Assembly (NCBI GenBank): GCA_002297865.1
Contig: DBKX01000216.1
Coordinates: forward strand, 5,136 to 14,264
From: Lachnoclostridium sp. UBA739
GTDB lineage: Bacteria; Bacillota_A; Clostridia; Lachnospirales; Lachnospiraceae
DNA length: 9,129 nt
Reading direction: 5' to 3'
Positions 1 to 9,129 of the stretch are shown here, piece after piece. Positions within the stretch are counted from its first letter, which is position 1. Each line of letters starts with the position of its first letter. The notes below the pieces were generated by a model. That model had not been told where the DNA came from. It was given only the letters and a program-made list of their open reading frames with translations, and searched no databases. Made by a program: the position numbers and the translations under genes.

Positions 1-78
1 AATTTAAAAGGTTATCACTTTTTTAGCGTATACTTAAAAGGCTGTCGTGTTAAAATTGGTAACCATCAATTTAAATAG
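1..78 (+). CDS. possible C-terminal tail of an upstream gene (partial)
   Basis: Frame 1 is open from the first base to a TAG at 76-78 and gives 25 residues, basic and hydrophilic near the end (ending IGNHQFK). The other two plus-strand frames hit stops within about 35 bases. A hairpin with a short T run follows 14 bases after the stop, as expected for a gene end. Twenty-five open codons can occur by chance in AT-rich DNA, and I do not recognise the peptide, so this is only a plausible gene tail. No function is assigned. Confidence 0.3.
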   Translation, partial: NLKGYHFFSVYLKGCRVKIGNHQFK

Positions 79-92
79 AATGAGCACGAAAT

Positions 93-131
93 AAAAGGGT
101 GTGATTGCAATTTTTTGCAACACCCCCTTTT
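93..131 (+). terminator. hairpin with short T tract, likely upstream-gene terminator
   Basis: GGGTG (97-101) pairs with CACCC (121-125) and TTGCAA (105-110) pairs with TTGCAA (115-120) around a TTTT loop. A three-base TGA bulge sits on the left arm. The stem is flanked by AAAA (93-96) and TTTT (128-131). The T run is only four bases, so termination may be weak. The hairpin ends exactly where the candidate glnS promoter begins, so it could alternatively be a regulatory dyad. Confidence 0.45.
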
Positions 132-156
132 CACTTATAGGCAGATGTGATATTAT
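128..156 (+). promoter_or_regulatory. candidate sigma-A promoter of glnS
   Basis: A TTTTCA -35-like hexamer (128-133, 4 of 6 to TTGACA) lies 17 bp from TATTAT (151-156, 5 of 6 to TATAAT). TG at 148-149 is placed as in an extended -10 element, which would compensate for the weak -35. An overlapping TATAGT (154-159) is an alternative -10. Transcription would start near 163, giving a leader of about 30 bases before the GTG. That is too short for a T-box riboswitch, and no T-box sequence is visible. Confidence 0.5.
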
Positions 157-179
157 AGTATTGATTTTCAAAAAGACGC

Positions 180-188
180 AAGGAGGGG
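180..188 (+). promoter_or_regulatory. ribosome binding site fixing the glnS GTG start
   Basis: AAGGAGGGG lies five bases upstream of a GTG at 194. The upstream in-frame ATG at 101 has no such site, falls inside the hairpin at 93-131 and precedes the candidate promoter. This site therefore decides the start in favour of GTG 194. Confidence 0.85.
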
Positions 189-193
189 ACACA

Positions 194-1879
194 GTGGAAA
201 AGGAACATGTTTCTGAAGAAAAAGAAGTGGTGACGAAAAACTTTATTGAGCAGATTATTGATAAAGATATAGCAGAAGGAAGATGCAAGAAAGTCATAAC
301 ACGATTTCCACCAGAGCCTAACGGATATCTTCATATTGGACATGCTAAGTCCATTCTATTAAATTCAGGATTAGCCGAAAAATATAACGGTCAATTTAAT
401 CTAAGGTTTGATGATACAAATCCTACAAAGGAAAAGACAGAGTTTGTTAAATCAATTGAAGAAGACGTAAAGTGGATTGGAGGCAACTTTGAAGATAGAG
501 TATTTTTTGCCTCTAATTATTTTGAACAGATGTATGAAGCAGCAGTTTTCCTTATTAAGAAAGGAAAAGCATATGTTTGCGATTTAAATGCTGATGAAAT
601 TAGAGAATATCGTGGTACTTTAACAGAGCCAGGTAAGAATAGTCCATATAGAAATCGTTCAGTAGAAGAAAACCTTAAACTATTTGAACAAATGAAAAAT
701 GGAGAATTTGAAGACGGTACTAAAGTTTTACGTGCTAAGATTGATATGTCTTCACCAAATATCAATATGCGTGACCCAATTCTTTACCGTGTGGCAAGAA
801 TGACACACCATAATACAGGAGATAAATGGTGTATTTATCCGATGTATGATTTTGCGCATCCAATCGAAGATGCTTTAGAAGGTGTTACGCATTCAATCTG
901 TACTTTAGAGTTTGAAGATCATAGACCACTATATGACTGGGTTGTAACAGAGTTAGAGTATGAAAACCCGCCAAAACAGATCGAATTTGCTAAGTTATAC
1001 CTCACTAATGTTATAACCGGTAAACGTTATATCAAAAAGTTAGTGGAAGAGGGGATTGTAGATGGATGGGATGATCCTAGATTAGTTTCCATTGCAGCAC
1101 TTCGTCGTAGAGGATTTACACCAGAATCTATTCGTAAGTTTATGGAACTTTGTGGAGTATCAAAGAGTAACAGTTCTGTAGATTATGCGATGCTTGAATA
1201 CTGTATTCGTGAAGATTTAAAGATGAAGAATGATCGTGTCATGGCGGTTCTTGATCCAATTAAGTTAATTATTGATAATTACCCAGAAGGTGAAATAGAA
1301 TATCTTGATGTTCAGAACAATCAGGAAAATGAGGAGCTAGGCACTCGTAAAGTACCATTTGGCCGTGAATTATATATTGACCGCGAAGACTTTATGATTG
1401 AGCCTCCTAAGAAATATTTCAGATTATATCCAGGTAATGAAGTTCGTCTGATGCATGCATATTTCGTAAAATGCGTTGATTATAAAACAGATGAAAATGG
1501 AAATGTTACAGAAGTGCATTGTACGTATGATAAAGAAACCAAGAGCGGTTCAGGATTTACTGGCCGTAAGGTAAAAGGAACAATACATTGGGTAGAATGT
1601 ACGACAGCAGTTCCAGTGGAAGTAAGAAATTATGAGAACATTGTAAATGAAGAATTAGGTGTTTACAATGAAGATGGAAGCCTTAATTTAAATCCAAACT
1701 CTTTAACAGTGCTTAAGAACTGTTTTGTAGAGCCATATTTAAAAGGTGCAAAAGCACTGGAGCGTTTCCAATTTGTTCGTCATGGATACTTCTGTGTGGA
1801 TAGTAAGGACTCCAAAGAAGATGCGTTAGTATTTAATCGTATTGTTTCATTAAAGAGTTCATATAAACCAAGCAAGTAA
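194..1879 (+). CDS. glnS: glutamine--tRNA ligase (GlnRS), class I
   Basis: A cytosolic enzyme that charges tRNA-Gln with glutamine using ATP. From the GTG start it is 561 residues, close to the usual GlnRS length of about 550. The class I HIGH signature is at residues 47-50 within [16 protein letters not shown]. The family block GWDDPRL is at 291-297, followed by [10 protein letters not shown] at 301-310. The C-terminal anticodon-binding beta-barrel region runs from about 345 to 555, with ELYIDREDF at 392-400. The KMSKS-loop position reads VITGKR (273-278), where E. coli GlnRS has VMSKR; the arginine and a preceding lysine remain but Met-Ser is lost. The start is set by the strong SD at 180-188. 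The gene is followed after 35 bases by a DUF2225 gene with no terminator between, so the two are probably cotranscribed. GlnRS is absent from many Firmicutes, which use GatCAB instead, so its presence is informative about lineage. The family call is secure. Confidence 0.97.
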
Positions 1880-1914
1880 TTGTTTTTTGTATTACCACAT
1901 AGGAGGGTTAGATA

Positions 1915-2739
1915 ATGAGTGATTTGTTTTCTGGATTAGAGGAATTCGGTCTTGGGGGGCTAAAAGACGTTGAGGTCTACGAGAACGATGCGTCTAAAGC
2001 TGAAGGAAATGCTACTGTGAAACATCAAGTGACAGAGGCAGAGATCTTATTCGATAAATCATACACTTGTCCTGTATGTGACAAAGAGTTTAAATCGAAG
2101 ACGGTTCGTACAGGTAAGATTAAATTAATTTCAGCAGATACCGATCTGCGACCAAAGTATCAGCTTGTCGATTCCTTAAAATATGATGCTATCGTTTGTC
2201 CACACTGTGGATATGCAGCTTTAAGCCGATATTTCAATTATATGACTTCTACACAGGCTCGCTTTATTAAAGAGAAGATATCGAGTAACTTCAAGGGAAT
2301 ATCCCAAGAAGGAGATATTTATACTTACGATGAAGCAATTTCAAGACATAAACTTGCATTGTTAAGTACTATTGTTAAGAAGAGCAAACAAAGTGAGAAG
2401 GCATATACATGTCTGAAACTTGCCTGGTTATGTCGTGGAAAACGTGAAAGTCTTCCAGAGGATACAAAAGATATAGAGCAGGTAAAGAAAAAACTAGAAT
2501 CCGATGAGTTGGATTTTCTTTCCAAGGCTTATGAAGGATTTCTTGGTGCATTTTCAAAAGAGATGTTTCCAATGTGTGGTATGGATGAGCATACAACCAC
2601 ATATCTTGTAGCTGATTTAGCTAGAAGATGTGGAAAATATGATGAATCAAAGAGATGGTTATCGAAGGTTCTTACATCCAGAGATGCAAAAGAACGTATC
2701 AAGGCGAAAGCTAGAGAGATTAAAGAGCTGATGCAGTAA
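1915..2739 (+). CDS. DUF2225 family zinc-ribbon-like protein
   Basis: A 274-residue soluble protein with no signal peptide or membrane segment. Two CxxC pairs, CPVC at 52-55 and CPHCGY at 95-100, look like one four-cysteine metal site, a hallmark of the DUF2225 family. The motif RPKYQLVDSLKYDAIVCP lies between them (79-96). The rest, about 135-274, is predominantly helical and charged, with repeat-like helices that may be TPR-like (AWLCRGKRES at 170-179 and LVADLARRCGKYDESKRWL at 231-249). Start ATG 1915 has an ideal AGGAGGG site (1901-1907) seven bases away. The gene sits downstream of glnS and ends before a strong terminator, so it is the last gene of that unit. The biochemical role of the family is not established, so none is claimed. 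Confidence 0.85.
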   Translation: MSDLFSGLEEFGLGGLKDVEVYENDASKAEGNATVKHQVTEAEILFDKSYTCPVCDKEFKSKTVRTGKIKLISADTDLRPKYQLVDSLKYDAIVCPHCGYAALSRYFNYMTSTQARFIKEKISSNFKGISQEGDIYTYDEAISRHKLALLSTIVKKSKQSEKAYTCLKLAWLCRGKRESLPEDTKDIEQVKKKLESDELDFLSKAYEGFLGAFSKEMFPMCGMDEHTTTYLVADLARRCGKYDESKRWLSKVLTSRDAKERIKAKAREIKELMQ

Positions 2740-2756
2740 TAGGCAATGATAATTTG

Positions 2757-2797
2757 TGGGGCGGTCCTTTTTGAGAAAAGGGCTAGCCTCATTTTTT
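2757..2797 (+). terminator. rho-independent terminator of the glnS-DUF2225 unit
   Basis: A long hairpin. The outer stem is TGGGGC (2757-2762) with GCCTCA (2786-2791), including one G-T wobble. The inner stem is GTCCTTTT (2764-2771) with AAAAGGGC (2776-2783), also with one wobble, closing a TGAG loop. It is followed directly by TTTTTT (2792-2797). It begins 17 bases after the DUF2225 stop codon and separates this unit from the downstream cluster. Confidence 0.88.
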
Positions 2798-2844
2798 AAC
2801 TTATAAGAAAGTCCTCTGCGAGTCCATCTCTATAAGTTAAAAAA
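2792..2844. repeat. 14-bp perfect inverted repeat with 25-base spacer
   Basis: TTTTTTAACTTATA (2792-2805) and TATAAGTTAAAAAA (2831-2844) are exact reverse complements around a 25-base spacer. The left arm shares its T run with the preceding terminator. A further GGGCT (2780-2784) / AGCCC (2844-2848) match could extend the stem outside, in competition with the terminator. Neither strand has a T run after the stem, so it is not itself a classical terminator. It may be a dispersed intergenic palindrome. That is inference, since only one copy is in the window. Confidence 0.6.
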
Positions 2845-2860
2845 GCCCCTAAAAAACAGC

Positions 2861-2937
2861 GACACCCGTTCGGCGGGGCAAAGTGTCTTCTCCCTCAAGA
2901 TTGAGGGTGGAGGAGTTAATGTGTCGAAGACACTTTG
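2861..2937. other. nested hairpin block in the intergenic region
   Basis: Directly visible elements are: a 12-bp perfect inverted repeat CAAAGTGTCTTC (2879-2890) / GAAGACACTTTG (2926-2937); inside it CCCTCAA (2892-2898) / TTGAGGG (2901-2907); before it CCCG (2865-2868) / CGGG (2874-2877) around TTCGG; and GTGTC-GAA-GACAC at 2921-2933. GACAC occurs at 2861 and 2929, GTGTC at 2883 and 2921, so alternative pairings exclude each other. The block lies downstream of a terminator and upstream of a promoter, so it is either an untranscribed structured element, a small RNA gene, or a repeat. The rest of the 2740-3083 gap shows no convincing gene. Confidence 0.5.
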
Positions 2938-2951
2938 TTCGTTATAAGAAG

Positions 2952-2965
2952 TTGTACGATTGTAC
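2952..2965 (+). promoter_or_regulatory. short direct repeat just upstream of the operon promoter
   Basis: TTGTAC occurs at 2952-2957 and 2960-2965, eight bases apart start to start, ending five bases before the -35 hexamer. This position could suit a regulator site. Two six-base copies in AT-rich DNA are weak evidence, and no regulator is identified. Confidence 0.2.
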
Positions 2966-2970
2966 TTTTT

Positions 2971-2999
2971 TTGACAAATTTCTTGTTTTGTATTATAGT
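2971..2999 (+). promoter_or_regulatory. sigma-A promoter of the ligase/carbamoyltransferase operon
   Basis: A perfect TTGACA (2971-2976), a 17-bp spacer, and TATAGT (2994-2999, 5 of 6 to consensus). Transcription would begin near 3006, leaving a leader of about 78 bases before the first gene. The leader carries an imperfect DNA dyad TTGTGGACACAA (3027-3038) that could be an operator. The near-consensus elements suggest substantial basal expression unless the operon is repressed. Confidence 0.82.
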
Positions 3000-3083
3000 A
3001 GAGATATAAGAATTTAGGCATTTTGCTTGTGGACACAATAAAAACTGAAAAACTATTAATGAAACAAAAGGGGATACATAAAT

Positions 3084-4517
3084 ATGATGCAAATTAGTTA
3101 TAAAAGCATAATAGCTAATTATCAAGGTACTATTTATGATTTAGCTAGTAAGCAAGTGATTAAATGTGAACCATTTCGTGAGAAGCTAAAGGATAATATA
3201 TGTGAACTGAAAAGTGTGGGCATTGCACCGTTACAAAGAGTAGGGATAATTATGAATTCTTCTGTGGGATTTATAATTAATTATTTCTCTTTAATTGAAA
3301 TTGGTGCGGTGCCTATTTTGTTATCAAAATATACAACTGTTTATGAAATAGAACATTATGATGAAGAATATGGAATACATTGGGTCTTAACTGATATGAT
3401 ACCAGAGGAACAAGTAAACGACTTTTTTAATACGAAGAAGGCAGTAAAAAAACTTGAAATATTTTCTTACGAGTATTGTGTCCAACGTGTAAATGCAAAT
3501 GCAGAAATCTATTCGTCTTTAGCGGGAATGACATTACAACCAACCTCAGGTTCTACTGGTACTGTAAAATTTTGTGTCAGAGATGAGTATGGCTGTCTTG
3601 CAGAACCTATAAACCATGTTGAAACTACAGGATTGGAGGGAGGCAATATATTTTGCCCACTTCCACTTAATCACGCTTATGGTTTTGGAACAGCATTTTT
3701 ATTAGCATTCGTTTCATCCTCCGATCTGACGTTATTAAATGAATTTAATCCAAGACAAGTAATGAGGGCATTTCAAGAACAGAATATTTCTATGTTTTTA
3801 GGAACCAATGCCATATATGATTTGCTGACAAAAATGAGAAATAAATCAGATGTCAAGCTGCCTAAAATATTGTTGTCAGCTGGGGCACCATTGTCAGAAG
3901 AAGTTTCAGAAAAAGTACATAGTCAATTTAATCGCTACATTTACCCATCATATGGTTCTACTGAAACGGGCGAAATCTGTTTGGAGCGAGCAGATATTCT
4001 ATCTAAAACTGGCAGTACAGGTACTCCATTAGTGAATACAAAAGTAAAGATTGAAAAAGTGGATGATACGTATGGTCAGGTAATTGTATCAAATCCTTCT
4101 TTAATGGTTGGATATTTGAATACAGATGGAACAATTGATAAAAGCTTGATTCGAGAGGGCAATTATTTCCCGACAGGAGATCTGGGGTATTTTGATGAGC
4201 AAGGAAGACTGATTTTACAGGGCAGATTAAAGAATATGATTAACGTATTTGGAATAAAGGTAAATCCTGTTGAAGTAGAAAAGGTTATTCGAGAAATAGA
4301 TGGTGTTAAGGATGTATATGTTTATGCAGGAAAGCACCGTTCAGGTTCCGATCTTGTGTTTGCAGAAGTATCGGGTAACAAGGATTTAACAGAGAGTAAC
4401 ATTATAGAGTATTGTAAAAGTAAGATGACTATGCAGAAAGTTCCGTCTAAAGTATTTCTTGTAGATGAAGTTCCAAGAAATGCAAGTGGTAAAATAATAA
4501 GGGACAAACTGCATTAA
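3084..4517 (+). CDS. ANL-superfamily adenylate-forming ligase (AMP-binding enzyme)
   Basis: It should activate a carboxylic acid with ATP to an acyl-adenylate and pass it to CoA, a carrier protein or an amine; the substrate is unknown. The 477 residues cover both lobes. Visible motifs are the phosphate-binding loop TSGSTGTVKF (154-163, with V where P is common), YGSTETGE (290-297), TGDLGYFDEQGRL (364-376), the hinge region GRLKNMINVFG (380-390) followed by IKVNPVEVE, and the C-terminal NASGK with the catalytic lysine at 470. All core elements look intact. It is shorter than most acyl-CoA synthetases (about 520-560) because the N-terminal lobe is compact, close to stand-alone acyl or aryl ligases. 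Two ATGs are adjacent (3084 and 3087), with AAAAGGGG about ten bases upstream, so the exact start is off by at most one codon. No carrier protein is in the window. It is the first gene of the cluster and lies 37 bases before the first carbamoyltransferase half. Confidence 0.9.
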   Translation: MMQISYKSIIANYQGTIYDLASKQVIKCEPFREKLKDNICELKSVGIAPLQRVGIIMNSSVGFIINYFSLIEIGAVPILLSKYTTVYEIEHYDEEYGIHWVLTDMIPEEQVNDFFNTKKAVKKLEIFSYEYCVQRVNANAEIYSSLAGMTLQPTSGSTGTVKFCVRDEYGCLAEPINHVETTGLEGGNIFCPLPLNHAYGFGTAFLLAFVSSSDLTLLNEFNPRQVMRAFQEQNISMFLGTNAIYDLLTKMRNKSDVKLPKILLSAGAPLSEEVSEKVHSQFNRYIYPSYGSTETGEICLERADILSKTGSTGTPLVNTKVKIEKVDDTYGQVIVSNPSLMVGYLNTDGTIDKSLIREGNYFPTGDLGYFDEQGRLILQGRLKNMINVFGIKVNPVEVEKVIREIDGVKDVYVYAGKHRSGSDLVFAEVSGNKDLTESNIIEYCKSKMTMQKVPSKVFLVDEVPRNASGKIIRDKLH

Positions 4518-4554
4518 TCATAAAAAAATATGAAGAAAGGATAAGTATATCTGT

Positions 4555-5613
4555 TTGAAAATCGGATATACAAAAGAAGGTATGCAAAGTAGGAATATTC
4601 TTGGTGTAGGTGGCTCAATACACGATTTTTCAAGCTGTCTGCTTCAGGATGGGGTCATGAAGTATTGTATTGAAGATGAACGTATTGTACGAAAGAAGCA
4701 TGCATTTTACCCAGGGGTAGCATATGAGTTAGCAAGAAAAAATGCGGCTCATACATGTATGGAGTTAGCAGGGTTTACGTACGACGACATCGAACTTGCA
4801 GTAGGAAATGATATTTTGAGTCATTTCTATTATCACAAACTTCAGGGAAAAGTAAAAAATTTTGTATTGATTAATCATCATTTAGCACATGCGTGTAGTG
4901 CCTTTTTTCCTTCAGATTTTAGTGAAGCCGCAATTTTGACAATTGATGGTGGCGGAAACTATACAGAGAATGAAGAACAAGATGATAGAAAATTCATCGA
5001 AGTTTGTTCCTTTGGATATGGAACTGGAAACAAGGTAATCGTATCCCAGGTGCAGAATGGAGAGCGAAGCAATGCGGAGCAGTTTGACAATAAGATAGAT
5101 CCTGTTTTGGACTCTATTGGTGGATTTTATGGTGCCATTACATATGCAAGTGGATTTACATTCCACGAAGAAGGAAAGACAATGGGATTATCATCCTATG
5201 GTGATAGCAGTATGTTAAAAGAAATCCGCTCGTACACATCTTTAAAGGAAAAAGGAGCATTTGGTTTCTCTTTAGAAGGAATGAGAATGCTCTATGAACT
5301 AAGAGAACAGTGGGAAAAGGAGACGGACAAGGAAAGACAGTTTGAAATTCGCGCTAATATTGCATATGCTGGACAAAAGATTGCAGAAGACGCTATCATA
5401 CATGCTGCATCTTATCTAAAAGAAGAGACAAAGGCAGATAATATATGTATTGCGGGTGGGGTTGCATTAAACAGTGTAGCAAATTATAAGCTGTATAAAA
5501 CAGGTCTGTTTAAAAATTATTTTATTCAGCCAGCAGCAGGTGACAATGGGACATCAATCGGTGCAGCATATTATGGCTGGCACATGGTGATGAATCAGCC
5601 AAGACAAGTATAA
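4555..5613 (+). CDS. carbamoyltransferase N-terminal (Kae1-like) half, copy 1
   Basis: It corresponds to the N-terminal domain of NodU/CmcH/TobZ carbamoyltransferases, the ASKHA/Kae1-like part that transfers carbamoyl from carbamoyl-adenylate to an acceptor hydroxyl. Family landmarks: GVGGSIHDFS (17-26), EDERIVRKKHAFYPG (40-54), NHHLAHACSAF (107-117), IDGGG (130-134), EEGKTMGLSSYG (205-216) and AAGDNGTSIGAA (327-338). The TobZ metal ligands map to H108, H112, D131 and D330; the 4- and 19-residue spacing between the first three is kept. SS replaces the usual AP in the GLAPYG motif. The protein (352 aa) ends exactly where the family's YrdC-like C-terminal domain would begin, and that domain is the next gene. 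The start is uncertain: TTG 4555 has GAAAGG 14 bases upstream, whereas ATG 4582 has AAGG only one base away and would begin four residues before the first beta strand. It is cotranscribed with its neighbours. Confidence 0.88.
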   Translation: MKIGYTKEGMQSRNILGVGGSIHDFSSCLLQDGVMKYCIEDERIVRKKHAFYPGVAYELARKNAAHTCMELAGFTYDDIELAVGNDILSHFYYHKLQGKVKNFVLINHHLAHACSAFFPSDFSEAAILTIDGGGNYTENEEQDDRKFIEVCSFGYGTGNKVIVSQVQNGERSNAEQFDNKIDPVLDSIGGFYGAITYASGFTFHEEGKTMGLSSYGDSSMLKEIRSYTSLKEKGAFGFSLEGMRMLYELREQWEKETDKERQFEIRANIAYAGQKIAEDAIIHAASYLKEETKADNICIAGGVALNSVANYKLYKTGLFKNYFIQPAAGDNGTSIGAAYYGWHMVMNQPRQV

Positions 5614-5618
5614 AGGAG
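5612..5618 (+). promoter_or_regulatory. ribosome binding site of the carbamoyltransferase C half
   Basis: AAAGGAG overlaps the TAA stop (5611-5613) of the N-terminal half and lies seven bases before ATG 5626. It is a strong, well-spaced site exactly at the domain boundary. This supports a true two-gene arrangement with coupled translation rather than a chance nonsense mutation or sequencing error. Confidence 0.85.
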
Positions 5619-5625
5619 AAGATAT

Positions 5626-6270
5626 ATGTTTAGTCCATTTTTAGGAAAGGTGTATTCAAAAGAAGATATTATATGTGATATTGAGAAGTATAAAGATAAA
5701 ATTGAGGCAACAGAATGTGAAGATGTATTTAAAAAGGCTGCAACTTCTATTTCAGAAGGAAAAATTATTGGATGGTATCAGGATGGGGCAGAATGTGGTC
5801 CGAGAGCATTAGGAAACAGAAGCCTGCTGGCTGATCCAAGAAGAGCAGAAATGAAAGATATTGTAAATAAACGAGTAAAATTTAGAGAACCATTTCGTCC
5901 GTTTGCGCCATCTATTTTATGGGAATGTCAGCAGGAATATTTTGATTTAGATATTCCGTCTCCATATATGCTTATGGTTGCGGATATCTGGCCTAAGAAA
6001 CGTTCTGTGATTCCAGCAGTAACTCATGTAGATGGAACGGGAAGACTGCAGACTGTTATGAAGGAAATGAATCCAAAATATTATAAACTGATTGAGACTT
6101 TCTATGAAATTACGGGAGTACCTGTTGTTTTGGATACTTCTTTCAATGTAAAAGGAGAACCAATCGTAGAAACACCGGAAGATGCAATCAAATGCTTTTT
6201 AGGTTCCAATTTTGATGAACTGTATTTAGGTGATATTCTGGTAGTAAAGAAAGTGCAAGAGGAGAAATAA
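5626..6270 (+). CDS. carbamoyltransferase C-terminal (YrdC-like) half
   Basis: It corresponds to the C-terminal domain of NodU/CmcH/TobZ enzymes. In those enzymes this domain makes carbamoyl-adenylate from carbamoyl phosphate and ATP. The 214 residues are a complete domain: a linker-like start PFLGKVYSKEDI (4-15), GWYQDGAECGPRALGNRS (49-66), LADPRR (68-73), REPFRPFAPS (87-96), HVDGTGRLQTV (134-144) and DTSFNVKGEPIVETPEDA (170-187). Every conserved block I would expect is present. It is in the same reading frame as the preceding N half, with only TAA and four codons between that stop and this ATG. The next gene begins one base after its stop, with AGAGGAG inside its end as the SD. It is the only C-type domain in the window and would have to serve both N-type proteins unless another copy lies elsewhere. 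On its own it could form the activated intermediate but should not transfer it. Confidence 0.93.
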   Translation: MFSPFLGKVYSKEDIICDIEKYKDKIEATECEDVFKKAATSISEGKIIGWYQDGAECGPRALGNRSLLADPRRAEMKDIVNKRVKFREPFRPFAPSILWECQQEYFDLDIPSPYMLMVADIWPKKRSVIPAVTHVDGTGRLQTVMKEMNPKYYKLIETFYEITGVPVVLDTSFNVKGEPIVETPEDAIKCFLGSNFDELYLGDILVVKKVQEEK

Positions 6271-6271
6271 A

Positions 6272-7258
6272 ATGATAATAGTTGGATTAGGTGGATCGGG
6301 TCATGATTTTTCGACTTGTATTTTTAAGGATGACCAGATCATAAGTTTTATTGAAGATGAAAGAGTAATAAGAAAAAAACATTCTTTCTTTCCAGGTATG
6401 GGAAAGGAGTTAATGAAACAGCCGGCACTTCATTATTGTTTCGAGCAGACTGGAATTGATGTTAGTGAGGTTGACTATTGCGTTTCAAATAGTTCTCTAG
6501 AGCCTTACTATTTTGCAAGAAACCCTTGGAAAAAGGAAATTATTCAAATCAATCATCATTTGTCACATGCGGCCAGTGCATTTTATCCTTCTGATTTTAA
6601 GGAAGCAGCAGTTCTTGTTATTGATGGAGCTGGCTTTGCAGAAGAAGAAGGTATGAATGACTCTATTACAATGTGGAGTGGGAATGGAAATGAAATAGAA
6701 AATATTATTAGTCATGGTGGAAAAATTATTTCAAGAAAATTGTACAATGAAATGATTGACCCAGCAGAAAATTCCATAGGAAGTTTCTATCACATTGCAA
6801 CAACGTTAGTTGGGTTCGGACCATTTGATGAGGGAAAAACAATGGGACTAGCACCATATGGAACAAGCCGCTTGTATAAAAAACTTCGAGAACTTGTGGA
6901 TTACGGAAAGGAAGGACAATTTATTTTTCCGATTGAAAGTATTAATGCTTTTGTACAAATGAAGGATCAGATGAATCCAGATGATTTTGACGAGAGAGCG
7001 GATATTGCGTGGGCTGCACAGCAGATTGCGGAAGAGGCACTTATCAATGCTGCAACATATTTAAAGAAACAGACAAATTGTGAAAACTTATGTTATGCAG
7101 GTGGAGTTGCTTTAAATAGTGTTGCAAACTATAAACTGTATAAGACTGGATTATTTAAGAATATCTTTATTCAGCCAGCTGCTGGTGATAATGGTACTTC
7201 TGTTGGAGCTGCATTGTATGGTGCATATAAAATTGCTGGAGTCGAAAGAAAAATATGA
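6272..7258 (+). CDS. carbamoyltransferase N-terminal (Kae1-like) half, copy 2
   Basis: A paralogue of the copy at 4555-5613 and again only the Kae1-like domain (328 aa), with no C-terminal domain behind it. Landmarks: VGLGGSGHDFSTC (4-16), EDERVIRKKHSFFPG (28-42), NHHLSHAASAFYPSDF (94-109), IDGAG (117-121), DEGKTMGLAPYG (186-197) and AAGDNGTSVGAA (303-314). The metal-ligand positions map to H95, H99, D118 and D306, all present, so it looks active rather than a decaying duplicate. The last shared 42 residues (276-317) differ from copy 1 at only three positions, while the middle of the two proteins has diverged strongly. It starts one base after the C half and its TGA overlaps the next ATG by four bases. 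Inference: it gives a second acceptor specificity or forms a complex with copy 1 and the C half. Confidence 0.93.
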   Translation: MIIVGLGGSGHDFSTCIFKDDQIISFIEDERVIRKKHSFFPGMGKELMKQPALHYCFEQTGIDVSEVDYCVSNSSLEPYYFARNPWKKEIIQINHHLSHAASAFYPSDFKEAAVLVIDGAGFAEEEGMNDSITMWSGNGNEIENIISHGGKIISRKLYNEMIDPAENSIGSFYHIATTLVGFGPFDEGKTMGLAPYGTSRLYKKLRELVDYGKEGQFIFPIESINAFVQMKDQMNPDDFDERADIAWAAQQIAEEALINAATYLKKQTNCENLCYAGGVALNSVANYKLYKTGLFKNIFIQPAAGDNGTSVGAALYGAYKIAGVERKI

Positions 7259-8013
7259 GTAAAGAAAAAATGAGTGAAAAACTTGTGGGAAAACATCTTT
7301 TGCTGCAGCCTCATTTAGATGACCTTCCATTTTCGATAGGAAGCATTTTATTAGAACAGTACATAAAAAAGGAAGATAGTATTGTGTATACAATCTTCGG
7401 AAAAGAGTTTTTTAATATTAGAAACTATCAGCACGATGAAAACGCAATGCAGATTCTTAGACAGGAGGAAGCAAAATGGTTTCAGAGTGCTGGAATAAAA
7501 AATCACCGGTTTGAATTAGAAGAAGCGGGCTATCGAGGAATTACGAGTATAAGAAAACTGTTTCGGACAAAAATGGCGGATGACTTTGCAATGAAGTATG
7601 AAGAACTTGAGTATGGAAACTGGGAAGAAGTGCTAGCTTGTGTCAAGACTATTTTAGACAGTCATTCCTGTGATTATGTATGGATTCCAGCAGGAGTTGG
7701 TGGGCATTGTGACCATATTGCGGTAAGACAGGCAATATTGGAACTGGTCTCCTTGTTCCAAGGAAAGGGAATCCTGTTTTTTGAAGAATTGCCTTACAGC
7801 TTATATTCAAAACCGCTGGATTGGAGTAAATGTGTGATACCAGATTTTCATTTGGAAGAAAGAATGGTACATACCTTATCACAGGAGGAAGAAACCTATA
7901 AGTATGAAAGCCTTAAGCATTTTCATTCACAAATAGATGATAGACAAGCAAGGGCTTTGTGCCATCATCCAGAAACCGTTACTTTGTGGATGCGAAATAA
8001 TCAGGAGGAATAA
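7255..8013 (+). CDS. PIG-L/LmbE-family deacetylase
   Basis: A zinc-dependent N-deacetylase of the family that includes MshB and GlcNAc-PI deacetylase, normally acting on N-acetylated amino sugars. The 252-residue protein has the first motif QPHLDDLPFSIG (18-29), giving H20 and D23 as zinc ligands and D22 as general base. The second motif GGHCDHIAVRQA (149-160) gives H154 as the third zinc ligand. Family roles are taken from MshB-type enzymes; the residues are visible here. There is no signal peptide, so it probably acts in the cytosol on a nucleotide sugar, glycolipid or small-molecule intermediate. Its ATG overlaps the preceding TGA by four bases, implying coupled translation, although the GGAG at 7238-7241 is somewhat far; ATG 7270 is a possible alternative. 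The next gene follows after two bases. Substrate is unknown. Confidence 0.88.
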   Translation: MSKEKMSEKLVGKHLLLQPHLDDLPFSIGSILLEQYIKKEDSIVYTIFGKEFFNIRNYQHDENAMQILRQEEAKWFQSAGIKNHRFELEEAGYRGITSIRKLFRTKMADDFAMKYEELEYGNWEEVLACVKTILDSHSCDYVWIPAGVGGHCDHIAVRQAILELVSLFQGKGILFFEELPYSLYSKPLDWSKCVIPDFHLEERMVHTLSQEEETYKYESLKHFHSQIDDRQARALCHHPETVTLWMRNNQEE

Positions 8014-8015
8014 GA

Positions 8016-9129
8016 ATGAAGGTACCTTTTCATAAACCAGATATTGATGATAGAGAAATACAAGCAGTTACCAAAGCGTTAAGGCGCAGGATGATTGGTA
8101 CTGGCCCCATTGTATCATCATTCGAGCGAAAGTTTAAAGAATATATTGGGGCTACCAATGCACTGGCAGTCAATTCTGCTACAGCAGCGTTGCATTTGGC
8201 AGTAGATGCGTTGGGAATTGGATCTGGTGATGAAGTGATTACAACTGCACTTACATTCACATCTACTATATTAGCTATTTTGTATACAGGAGCTACACCA
8301 GTATTTGCTGATGTAAATCCACATACACTTTGTCTGGATGCAGCAGATGTAGAGAAGAAAATAACGAAAAGAACCAAGGCAATTCTGCCAGTACATTACG
8401 CAGGAGTGCCATGTGATATGGATGCACTAACTGCATTGTGCAAAAAGTATAATCTTGCATTAATTGAAGATGCTGCACATGCCTTACCAACGGAATGGAA
8501 GGGAAAGAAAATAGGTTCTGACAGAAGTGAAATTAAAAATATTGCTTGTTTTAGTTTTCAGGCTACGAAAACGTTAGCAATTGGGGATGGCGGAATGGTT
8601 ACCACTTCGGATTCAGAACTTGCAGAAATCATTTCCATGAAGCGCTTGTTTGGAATGAAAAGAAAACAGGATTTTACTAACATTGATCTGGCTTTGCAAT
8701 ATGGAGTGGAGACACTAGGTTATAAGTATAACATGACCGATATCGAAGCTTCTATTGGACAGATTCAGCTTGAGAAATTAGAAGAAATGTATCTGAAACG
8801 AAAAAGGGCAGCAGAGCGTTACATAGAGAAATTAAGTCATCTGGAGGAAATTCGTATACCAAGTATTCCAAAAGAAGCAAAAGTTTCATGGCATCTGTTT
8901 GTGATTATATTAAATGATGAGAAAAAGAGAGGCGCGCTTTTGGAATATTTAAAAGGAAAAGGGATTACGGCTTCCGTTCATTTTATGCCAGTATATGAAT
9001 TCCCGTATTTTCAGCCAATGTTTCCAGATGCAAAACAGCAGTTGACTTACACAGAACAAGTTTCTAAGCAGGTAGTCAGTCTTCCAATGTTTCCTGATAT
9101 TACAGAAGAACAGATTGATTATGTTTGTG
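8016..9129 (+). CDS. DegT/DnrJ/EryC1/StrS-family PLP aminotransferase (3' end outside window)
   Basis: A PLP-dependent sugar aminotransferase of the type that puts an amino group on a keto-sugar nucleotide. I read 371 residues with no stop before the window end; since the family is usually 370-400 residues, only a short C-terminal piece is missing. Motifs: the N-terminal VPFHKPDID (3-11), GTGPIVSSFERKF (28-40), NSATAALHLA (53-62), DEVITTALTFTST (72-84), EDAAHALP (151-158, D152 expected to contact the pyridine nitrogen) and FSFQATKTLAIGDGGM (179-194) with the PLP lysine at K185. The start is ATG 8016 with AGGAGG (8003-8008) seven bases upstream, inside the end of the deacetylase gene. Resemblance to 4-amino-4-deoxy sugar enzymes (ArnB or VioA style) is suggested by motif flavour only. 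Its presence points to an amino-sugar pathway. Confidence 0.93.
   Translation, partial: MKVPFHKPDIDDREIQAVTKALRRRMIGTGPIVSSFERKFKEYIGATNALAVNSATAALHLAVDALGIGSGDEVITTALTFTSTILAILYTGATPVFADVNPHTLCLDAADVEKKITKRTKAILPVHYAGVPCDMDALTALCKKYNLALIEDAAHALPTEWKGKKIGSDRSEIKNIACFSFQATKTLAIGDGGMVTTSDSELAEIISMKRLFGMKRKQDFTNIDLALQYGVETLGYKYNMTDIEASIGQIQLEKLEEMYLKRKRAAERYIEKLSHLEEIRIPSIPKEAKVSWHLFVIILNDEKKRGALLEYLKGKGITASVHFMPVYEFPYFQPMFPDAKQQLTYTEQVSKQVVSLPMFPDITEEQIDYVC

Follow-up and report, generated by a model that had tools for sequence, protein, structure and literature searches.

The stretch of DNA considered here, 9,129 nucleotides of contig DBKX01000216.1 from Lachnoclostridium sp. UBA739 (positions 5,136 to 14,264; hereafter the window), carries three adjacent genes, termed N1, C and N2, which, as judged from their sequences, are an O-carbamoyltransferase of the NodU/TobZ type divided at the domain linker into three genes. 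N1 and N2 are stand-alone Kae1-like carbamoyl-transfer halves, and C is a stand-alone YrdC-like half. The reading favoured here, held with somewhat better than even confidence, is that a single subunit forming carbamoyl-adenosine monophosphate (carbamoyl-AMP, i.e. carbamoyl-adenylate), namely C, would serve two transferases, N1 and N2, with different acceptors; what we infer from these genes is the chemistry, that C is shared and that there are two acceptors.

That the halves are separate genes in the order N1, C, N2, as the initial annotation had claimed, is borne out by both the open reading frames (ORFs) and the Pfam matches (table 1), none of the three frames combining a match to Carbam_trans_N (PF02543; cut-off 24) with one to Carbam_trans_C (PF16861; cut-off 27). 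The single polypeptide of about 550–700 residues, which is typical of NodU, CmcH and TobZ, is not found, and C is the sole C half seen within the window. N1 and N2 are 45% identical to each other. The cut between N1 and C falls at the domain boundary, in a short linker before an FSPYLG-like motif (alignment with 24 fused relatives), clear Shine-Dalgarno sites are present ahead of C and N2 (aaaggagaagatatATG and gaggagaaataaaATG), and the spacer between C and N2 is of 1 nucleotide. The start of N1, set at the TTG of position 4555, is unsure, an in-frame ATG at 4582 being a possible alternative.

In the window, N1 and C have a common frame with one TAA between them, a feature that favours the view of the split as an error, i.e. 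a fused gene interrupted by a mutation or by a mistake in sequencing, with a partial copy after it. Such an origin is highly improbable. Indeed, an identical split is found in two further N1-C-N2 loci, from Paenibacillus pinihumi DSM 23905 (an isolate; locus L001, genome G001) and from a Lachnospiraceae metagenome-assembled genome (MAG; locus L002, assembly G002), in both of which N1 and C lie in different frames, so that the common frame of the window is accidental and no nonsense mutation of a fused gene needs to be invoked. Furthermore, many stand-alone C halves are listed (see below), and split N halves stand apart from fused ones in the N-domain tree, with modest support. Sequencing error and nonsense mutation are, therefore, rejected, and, where a fused full-length enzyme in close relatives had been named as the observation that could speak against the split, three separate genes are present in both L001 and L002.

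The two loci were found in a genome-contig scan with the N2 alignment, which rests on two exact peptide patterns; among the best 80 of 112 relatives kept, two are N-C-N loci, one is a two-gene N-C pair (L003, read as sequence), 76 are fused and one is cut by a contig end. The gene order AMP-dependent ligase, N1, C, N2, PIG-L-like protein, DegT-type aminotransferase is identical in the window, L001 and L002, and, of the six proteins common to the three loci, C varies least (74–78% identity of the window's protein to those of L001 and L002, versus 38–64%). Protein searches with N1, C and N2, in which the best 120 of thousands of matches were listed for each, point to additional loci: among the matches listed, there are seven N1/C/N2 triples with longest contigs of equal size (40098, 8251, 47701, 109373, 41370, 12729 and 228372 bases), the 228372-base triple carrying the L002 sequences, and, outside the three loci read, co-location is deduced from these equal contig sizes. 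Equal sizes also link 29 further pairings of one N with one C among the matches listed, and they place five N2-type proteins (P0137-P0141) with a C half (P0024, P0055, P0061, P0049 and P0066) and with no N1 relative so sized among the 120 listed, i.e. these may be N2–C pairs devoid of N1. The 120 listed C homologues have 183–233 residues and come from a search window of about 118–375 residues, so that they document many stand-alone halves rather than a rarity of fused enzymes.

The search of genomes for N-C-N loci suggested with the initial annotation has given two more loci read; whole-genome searches of families and classes added none. Carbam_trans_C matches were present in 12 of the 397 genomes of the family of G002, with a short frame in G002 only; the N2 profile at 1e-60, with at most five candidates scored per genome, matched 6 genomes out of 394 in the family of G001 and 3 out of 391 in the class of G002, split in G001 only and in G002 only, respectively. 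A viral origin was considered and rejected, 25 pattern matches in viral contigs having yielded no relative. Plasmid (232) and phage (34) records that match N2 do so at less than 60% identity in all cases and, for the 40 rows listed, at no more than 33%.

The Fe ligands of GdmN are H133, H137, D156 and D333 (PMC9633730). H108, H112, D131 and D330 of N1, and H95, H99, D118 and D306 of N2, align to these residues, and the same alignment identifies H23 of N1 and H11 of N2 as the histidine general base. Retention of the metal-ligand positions in both N proteins, originally noted in the window, extends to their relatives, the four ligands and the base showing no variation in any of the 18 N1 rows or the 24 N2-type rows (sets that include a few identical copies, and five N2-type rows, P0137-P0141, of uncertain N-C-N membership). 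The C half also retains its conserved blocks, as proposed earlier: of the 44 positions conserved at 95% or more among 33 fused enzymes, 40 are retained by all 17 C halves assigned to N-C-N loci, five of which (P0003, P0007, P0012, P0018 and P0021) were labelled from one N only and two of which repeat L001 and L002. Among the residues kept in all 17 rows, K85, M115 and S172 are spaced exactly as K443, M473 and S530 of TobZ, which are mutated positions named in PDB titles and whose counterparts in C were assigned by this spacing. By sequence, then, N1, C and N2 all look intact, with no subunit appearing dead. As a separate observation, residue 170 of C (window 6133–6135), just before the TSFN block and one of the four positions of 44 not fully kept, is Asn in 33 of 33 fused enzymes and Asp in 7 of 17 N-C-N C rows.

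When N1 and C are read as one chain (with the TAA as Q), the model has a predicted local distance difference test score (pLDDT) of 91.5 and a predicted template modelling score (pTM) of 0.91, and is nearest to GdmN, TobZ, NovN and VtdB over both domains (template modelling score, TM, 0.80–0.83); given the artificial tether and the fused relatives in the alignment, it indicates compatibility, not binding. The N2 model alone (pLDDT 92.0, pTM 0.91) is a Kae1-like domain, nearest to TobZ/GdmN-type enzymes (TM 0.77–0.81), with TsaD-type chains (of TsaD-TsaB, or YgjD-YeaZ, complexes) coming next.

An extra C half downstream of N2, a possibility raised at the outset as contrary to sharing, is absent from about 10 kb in L001 and about 8 kb in L002, and no other C was found elsewhere in the G002 assembly; a dedicated C for N2 is, therefore, rejected. 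In assemblies that come without stated completeness, G002 contains two N halves over the cut-off and a single match to Carbam_trans_C (a further N match, below threshold and in a 346-residue frame, is probably TsaD), and G001 contains four N and three C frames, two of each being fused (702 and 708 residues), which leaves two N halves and one C. With two N halves, one C and no extra C, a shared C is the economical reading, provided that both N halves are active. Of the earlier proposal of one activator and two acceptors, the shared activator agrees with these counts, whereas the case for differing acceptors, which comes through residues of the pocket region, is indirect and weak. In such a system, carbamoyl-adenylate would be made by C from carbamoyl phosphate and ATP, and C would dock on N1 and N2, either one after the other or as two complexes side by side, through the interface that is internal to the single chain of TobZ; each N half, with its Fe site and histidine base, would then carbamoylate an acceptor of its own within the compound that the gene cluster makes.

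Residues that set N1 and N2 apart are found at 10 of 53 positions in the regions corresponding to the acceptor pocket of GdmN versus 11 of 269 elsewhere (score at least 0.7; one-sided p=0.001), after removal of identical or near-identical rows and of columns with more than 20% gaps. With the exception of position 318, they are almost absent from the last 80 residues, the nucleotide-binding end of the N half. This distribution fits, weakly, with N1 and N2 having different acceptors.

Several points weigh against a shared C serving two acceptors. The pocket enrichment is modest, the other seven threshold tests giving p=0.012 to 0.13 and the rank tests 0.08 and 0.45, with an approximate helix-1 boundary and with loop 4′ of GdmN left out. 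A Ser two residues after the glycine motif of the ligand Asp (at N2 position 122), which 26 of 27 fused rows and all 70 other split N rows have, gives way to other residues in most rows of N1 and N2; a Tyr (at N2 position 55) is lost in N1. To these are to be added the reliance on equal contig sizes outside the loci read, the unstated completeness of the MAG that contains L002 and the two fused carbamoyltransferases found elsewhere in the genome of P. pinihumi. The latter are also consistent with the view that N1–C alone works as a carbamoyltransferase, with N2 being regulatory, fed by a fused enzyme elsewhere or redundant, as is the N-then-C order that N1 and C have in common with the L003 pair. 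This view is distinctly unlikely in the light of the conservation of N2, which between N-C-N loci is slightly higher than that of N1 (mean identity 68% versus 62%, 36 pairs each), of its intact Fe ligands and base, and of the G002 assembly, where no other C was found.

A precedent for a division of labour between chains is the synthesis of N6-threonylcarbamoyladenosine (t6A), in which the YrdC-like activator TsaC and the Kae1-like transferase TsaD are on separate chains and are joined by a Kae1-like paralogue, TsaB, which is degenerate and without a metal site. By analogy with the role of TsaB for TsaD, N1, C and N2 may form an obligate complex for a single carbamoylation, one N being the transferase and the other helping, as its partner, to form the pocket or the dimer. 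C is flanked by N1 and N2 in all three loci read, and the position of chains of the TsaD-TsaB (YgjD-YeaZ) complexes as the next structural neighbours of N2 also agrees with such an assembly. Both N1 and N2, unlike TsaB, keep the metal site, in a biosynthetic gene cluster; the TsaB-like loss of this site in one paralogue is not seen, all four ligands (and the base) being kept in both N clades, and a degenerate, TsaB-like N half is, therefore, not supported. The N halves score below the TsaD family cut-offs (PF00814, 23.2 and 23.9 versus 24.8; TIGR03723, 31.0 and 24.9 versus 296.1). In addition, N2 may pair with C without N1, if the equal-sized contigs of P0137-P0141 are taken at face value among the 120 matches listed. 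An obligate three-protein complex is, on balance, unlikely, although it is the chief alternative to the shared-C reading. A variant of it could resemble GdmN, a homodimer in which the second monomer gives loop 4′ to the acceptor pocket (PMC9633730), with one N half lending a loop to the other.

As to the history of the shared-C arrangement, a careful N-domain tree of 59 rows contains an N1 clade (9 rows; 100/99) and an N2 clade (11 rows; 100/95), which are joined with a further stand-alone group of 7 rows (99/96), and separates split from fused rows with modest support (89/81). The N1, N2 and joint groups are recovered likewise in a quick tree of 151 rows, from which one N protein of less than 300 residues was left out. 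In the C tree, built with the best 90 of the 120 listed C proteins, a branch (93) sets off the split C halves, with the C halves of N-C-N loci nested among them; the idea that the latter form a single clade is not borne out, and an exchange of N or C parts, which would also count against the shared-C reading, may have taken place.

The rates at which the halves have changed can be compared across 31 N-C loci and 9 N-C-N loci. N and C were paired by eye on equal longest-contig sizes, save for P0020/P0197 (organism name) and for L003 and three of the N-C-N loci (sequence); the 31 N-C loci may hold a second N. At C identities of 75–80%, the N halves of N-C loci are 69% identical (17 pairs), and N1 and N2 are 44% and 47% identical to them (11 pairs each); at C identities of 70–75%, the corresponding values are 62% (25 pairs), 45% and 46% (29 pairs each), and the pairs are not independent. 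C thus stays similar while N1 and N2 diverge, from which the likely and simplest account is that a fused gene underwent fission, that N alone was then duplicated, and that both N copies changed fast next to a C that changed little. Alternatively, a foreign half may have taken the place of N. The fuller proposal, in which C would be a dissociable carbamoyl-AMP synthetase hub for two competent transferases acting at two positions of one product, and in which this state would have arisen by duplication of the acceptor half in an already split enzyme, has about an even chance of being correct.

With the class III enzymes (TobZ, GdmN, VtdB and NovN), N1, C and N2 have in common the two folds, the Fe ligands with the histidine base and the YrdC-like positions; the solved members are single chains, whereas N1, C and N2 are each encoded by a gene of their own, two N halves going with one C. 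The two-gene locus L003 also has separate N and C in that order, with a C 65% identical, but one N per C. The L003 pair (L003:10001-11638) adjoins a match to BpsA_C (branched-chain polyamine synthase), a type I phosphodiesterase and a B12-binding radical S-adenosylmethionine (SAM) protein. HypF also combines YrdC-like and Kae1-like domains in carbamoyl-adenylate chemistry (PMC6022934), but it does so in one chain, with YrdC before Kae1 and with extra acylphosphatase and zinc-finger domains. The N halves score 28.2 and 29.4 bits with the HypF model (cut-off 466.1), and the Pfam scan detected no acylphosphatase or zinc-finger domain in N1, C or N2. In the nolMNO operon of Bradyrhizobium diazoefficiens, nolN and nolO are both annotated as carbamoyltransferases (PMC8453007); each is treated there as a carbamoyltransferase of like function, and no shared C half is described in the available part of that report.

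Table 1. Positions of the genes and other features discussed, in window coordinates.
Feature	Position	Strand	Remarks
Promoter-like site TTGACA-17-TATAGT	2971..2999	+	upstream of the cluster; 11/12 consensus matches
AMP-dependent ligase	3084..4517	+	PF00501 and PF13193; opens the conserved run
N1, stand-alone Kae1-like carbamoyl-transfer half	4555..5613	+	352 residues; PF02543, 127.8 bits
N1–C spacer	5614..5625	+	12 nucleotides; Shine-Dalgarno AGGAG ahead of the C start
C, stand-alone YrdC-like half	5626..6270	+	214 residues; PF16861, 234.7 bits, full profile matched (1-170 of 170)
N2, second stand-alone Kae1-like half	6272..7258	+	328 residues; PF02543, 140 bits
PIG-L/LmbE-like de-N-acetylase	7255..8013	+	4-nucleotide overlap with N2; PF02585, 35 bits (cut-off 28.2)
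DegT/DnrJ/EryC1-type aminotransferase	8016..9128	+	truncated by the window end; PF01041, 412.7 bits

The genes around N1, C and N2 belong to a conserved run of 13 genes present in Paenibacillus and Lachnospiraceae (L001:6831-19569 and L002:6850-19301), in the order AMP-dependent ligase, N1, C, N2, PIG-L-like protein, DegT-type aminotransferase, radical SAM/SPASM protein, carrier-like ORF, second radical SAM/SPASM protein, family 2 glycosyltransferase, second DegT-type aminotransferase, DhnA-type aldolase and dehydroquinate (DHQ) synthase II, the last being cut by the locus end in L002. The ligase of the window is 38% identical to the ligase that occupies this position in L001 and 43% identical to that of L002, the values for the similarly placed DegT-type aminotransferase being 55% and 56%; the PIG-L-like counterparts are 49% and 46% identical to that of the window, yet they fall below the PF02585 cut-off with 27.8 and 19.4 bits. 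The promoter-like site is the best of 28 found in positions 2700–9129 (shuffled sequences: mean 21.9, standard deviation 5.1), and is a consensus match only. The small carrier-protein-like ORFs of L001 and L002 score 21.6 and 20.3 bits with PP-binding (cut-off 20.8), and the L001 aldolase is over the subfamily and under the equivalog cut-off of NCBIfam for 2-amino-3,7-dideoxy-D-threo-hept-6-ulosonate synthase. The aldolase and DHQ synthase II resemble the GriI/GriH pair for 3-amino-4-hydroxybenzoate and, by analogy, the product of the cluster is perhaps built on this compound; no paper matching a known product pathway for the cluster was found in the open-access literature.

By comparison of sequences, the cluster is an accessory island. 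In G282, the closest of 394 sampled genomes, the DUF2225 protein is 92% identical and the DNA is 86% identical over window positions 1–2734, similarity stopping at the end of the DUF2225 gene (2734); in place of window positions 2735–9129, the corresponding locus (L110) is occupied by different genes, identified by eye as a VanZ-like ORF and GroES/GroEL. Neither an N2 match at 1e-30 nor a Carbam_trans_C is present in G282, from which it follows that the cluster is accessory there.

In the open-access full text, no description of a split or N-C-N carbamoyltransferase was found, subscription papers being mostly outside the scope of the search. NCBI gives some of the stand-alone halves the name 'carbamoyltransferase N-terminal' or 'C-terminal domain-containing protein', and no study of these annotated halves was found in the open-access literature.

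In TobZ-type enzymes, the reactive carbamoyl-adenylate moves between two active sites inside one chain. The split three-protein form occurs in a small set of bacteria. If the shared-C reading is true, it would make channelling versus release of carbamoyl-adenylate across a protein–protein interface directly testable, it would show how the acceptor half changes with the activator fixed, and it would provide a natural template for trying acceptor halves on one activator. At the same time, the N-C-N locus flags a gene cluster common to Paenibacillus and Lachnospiraceae.

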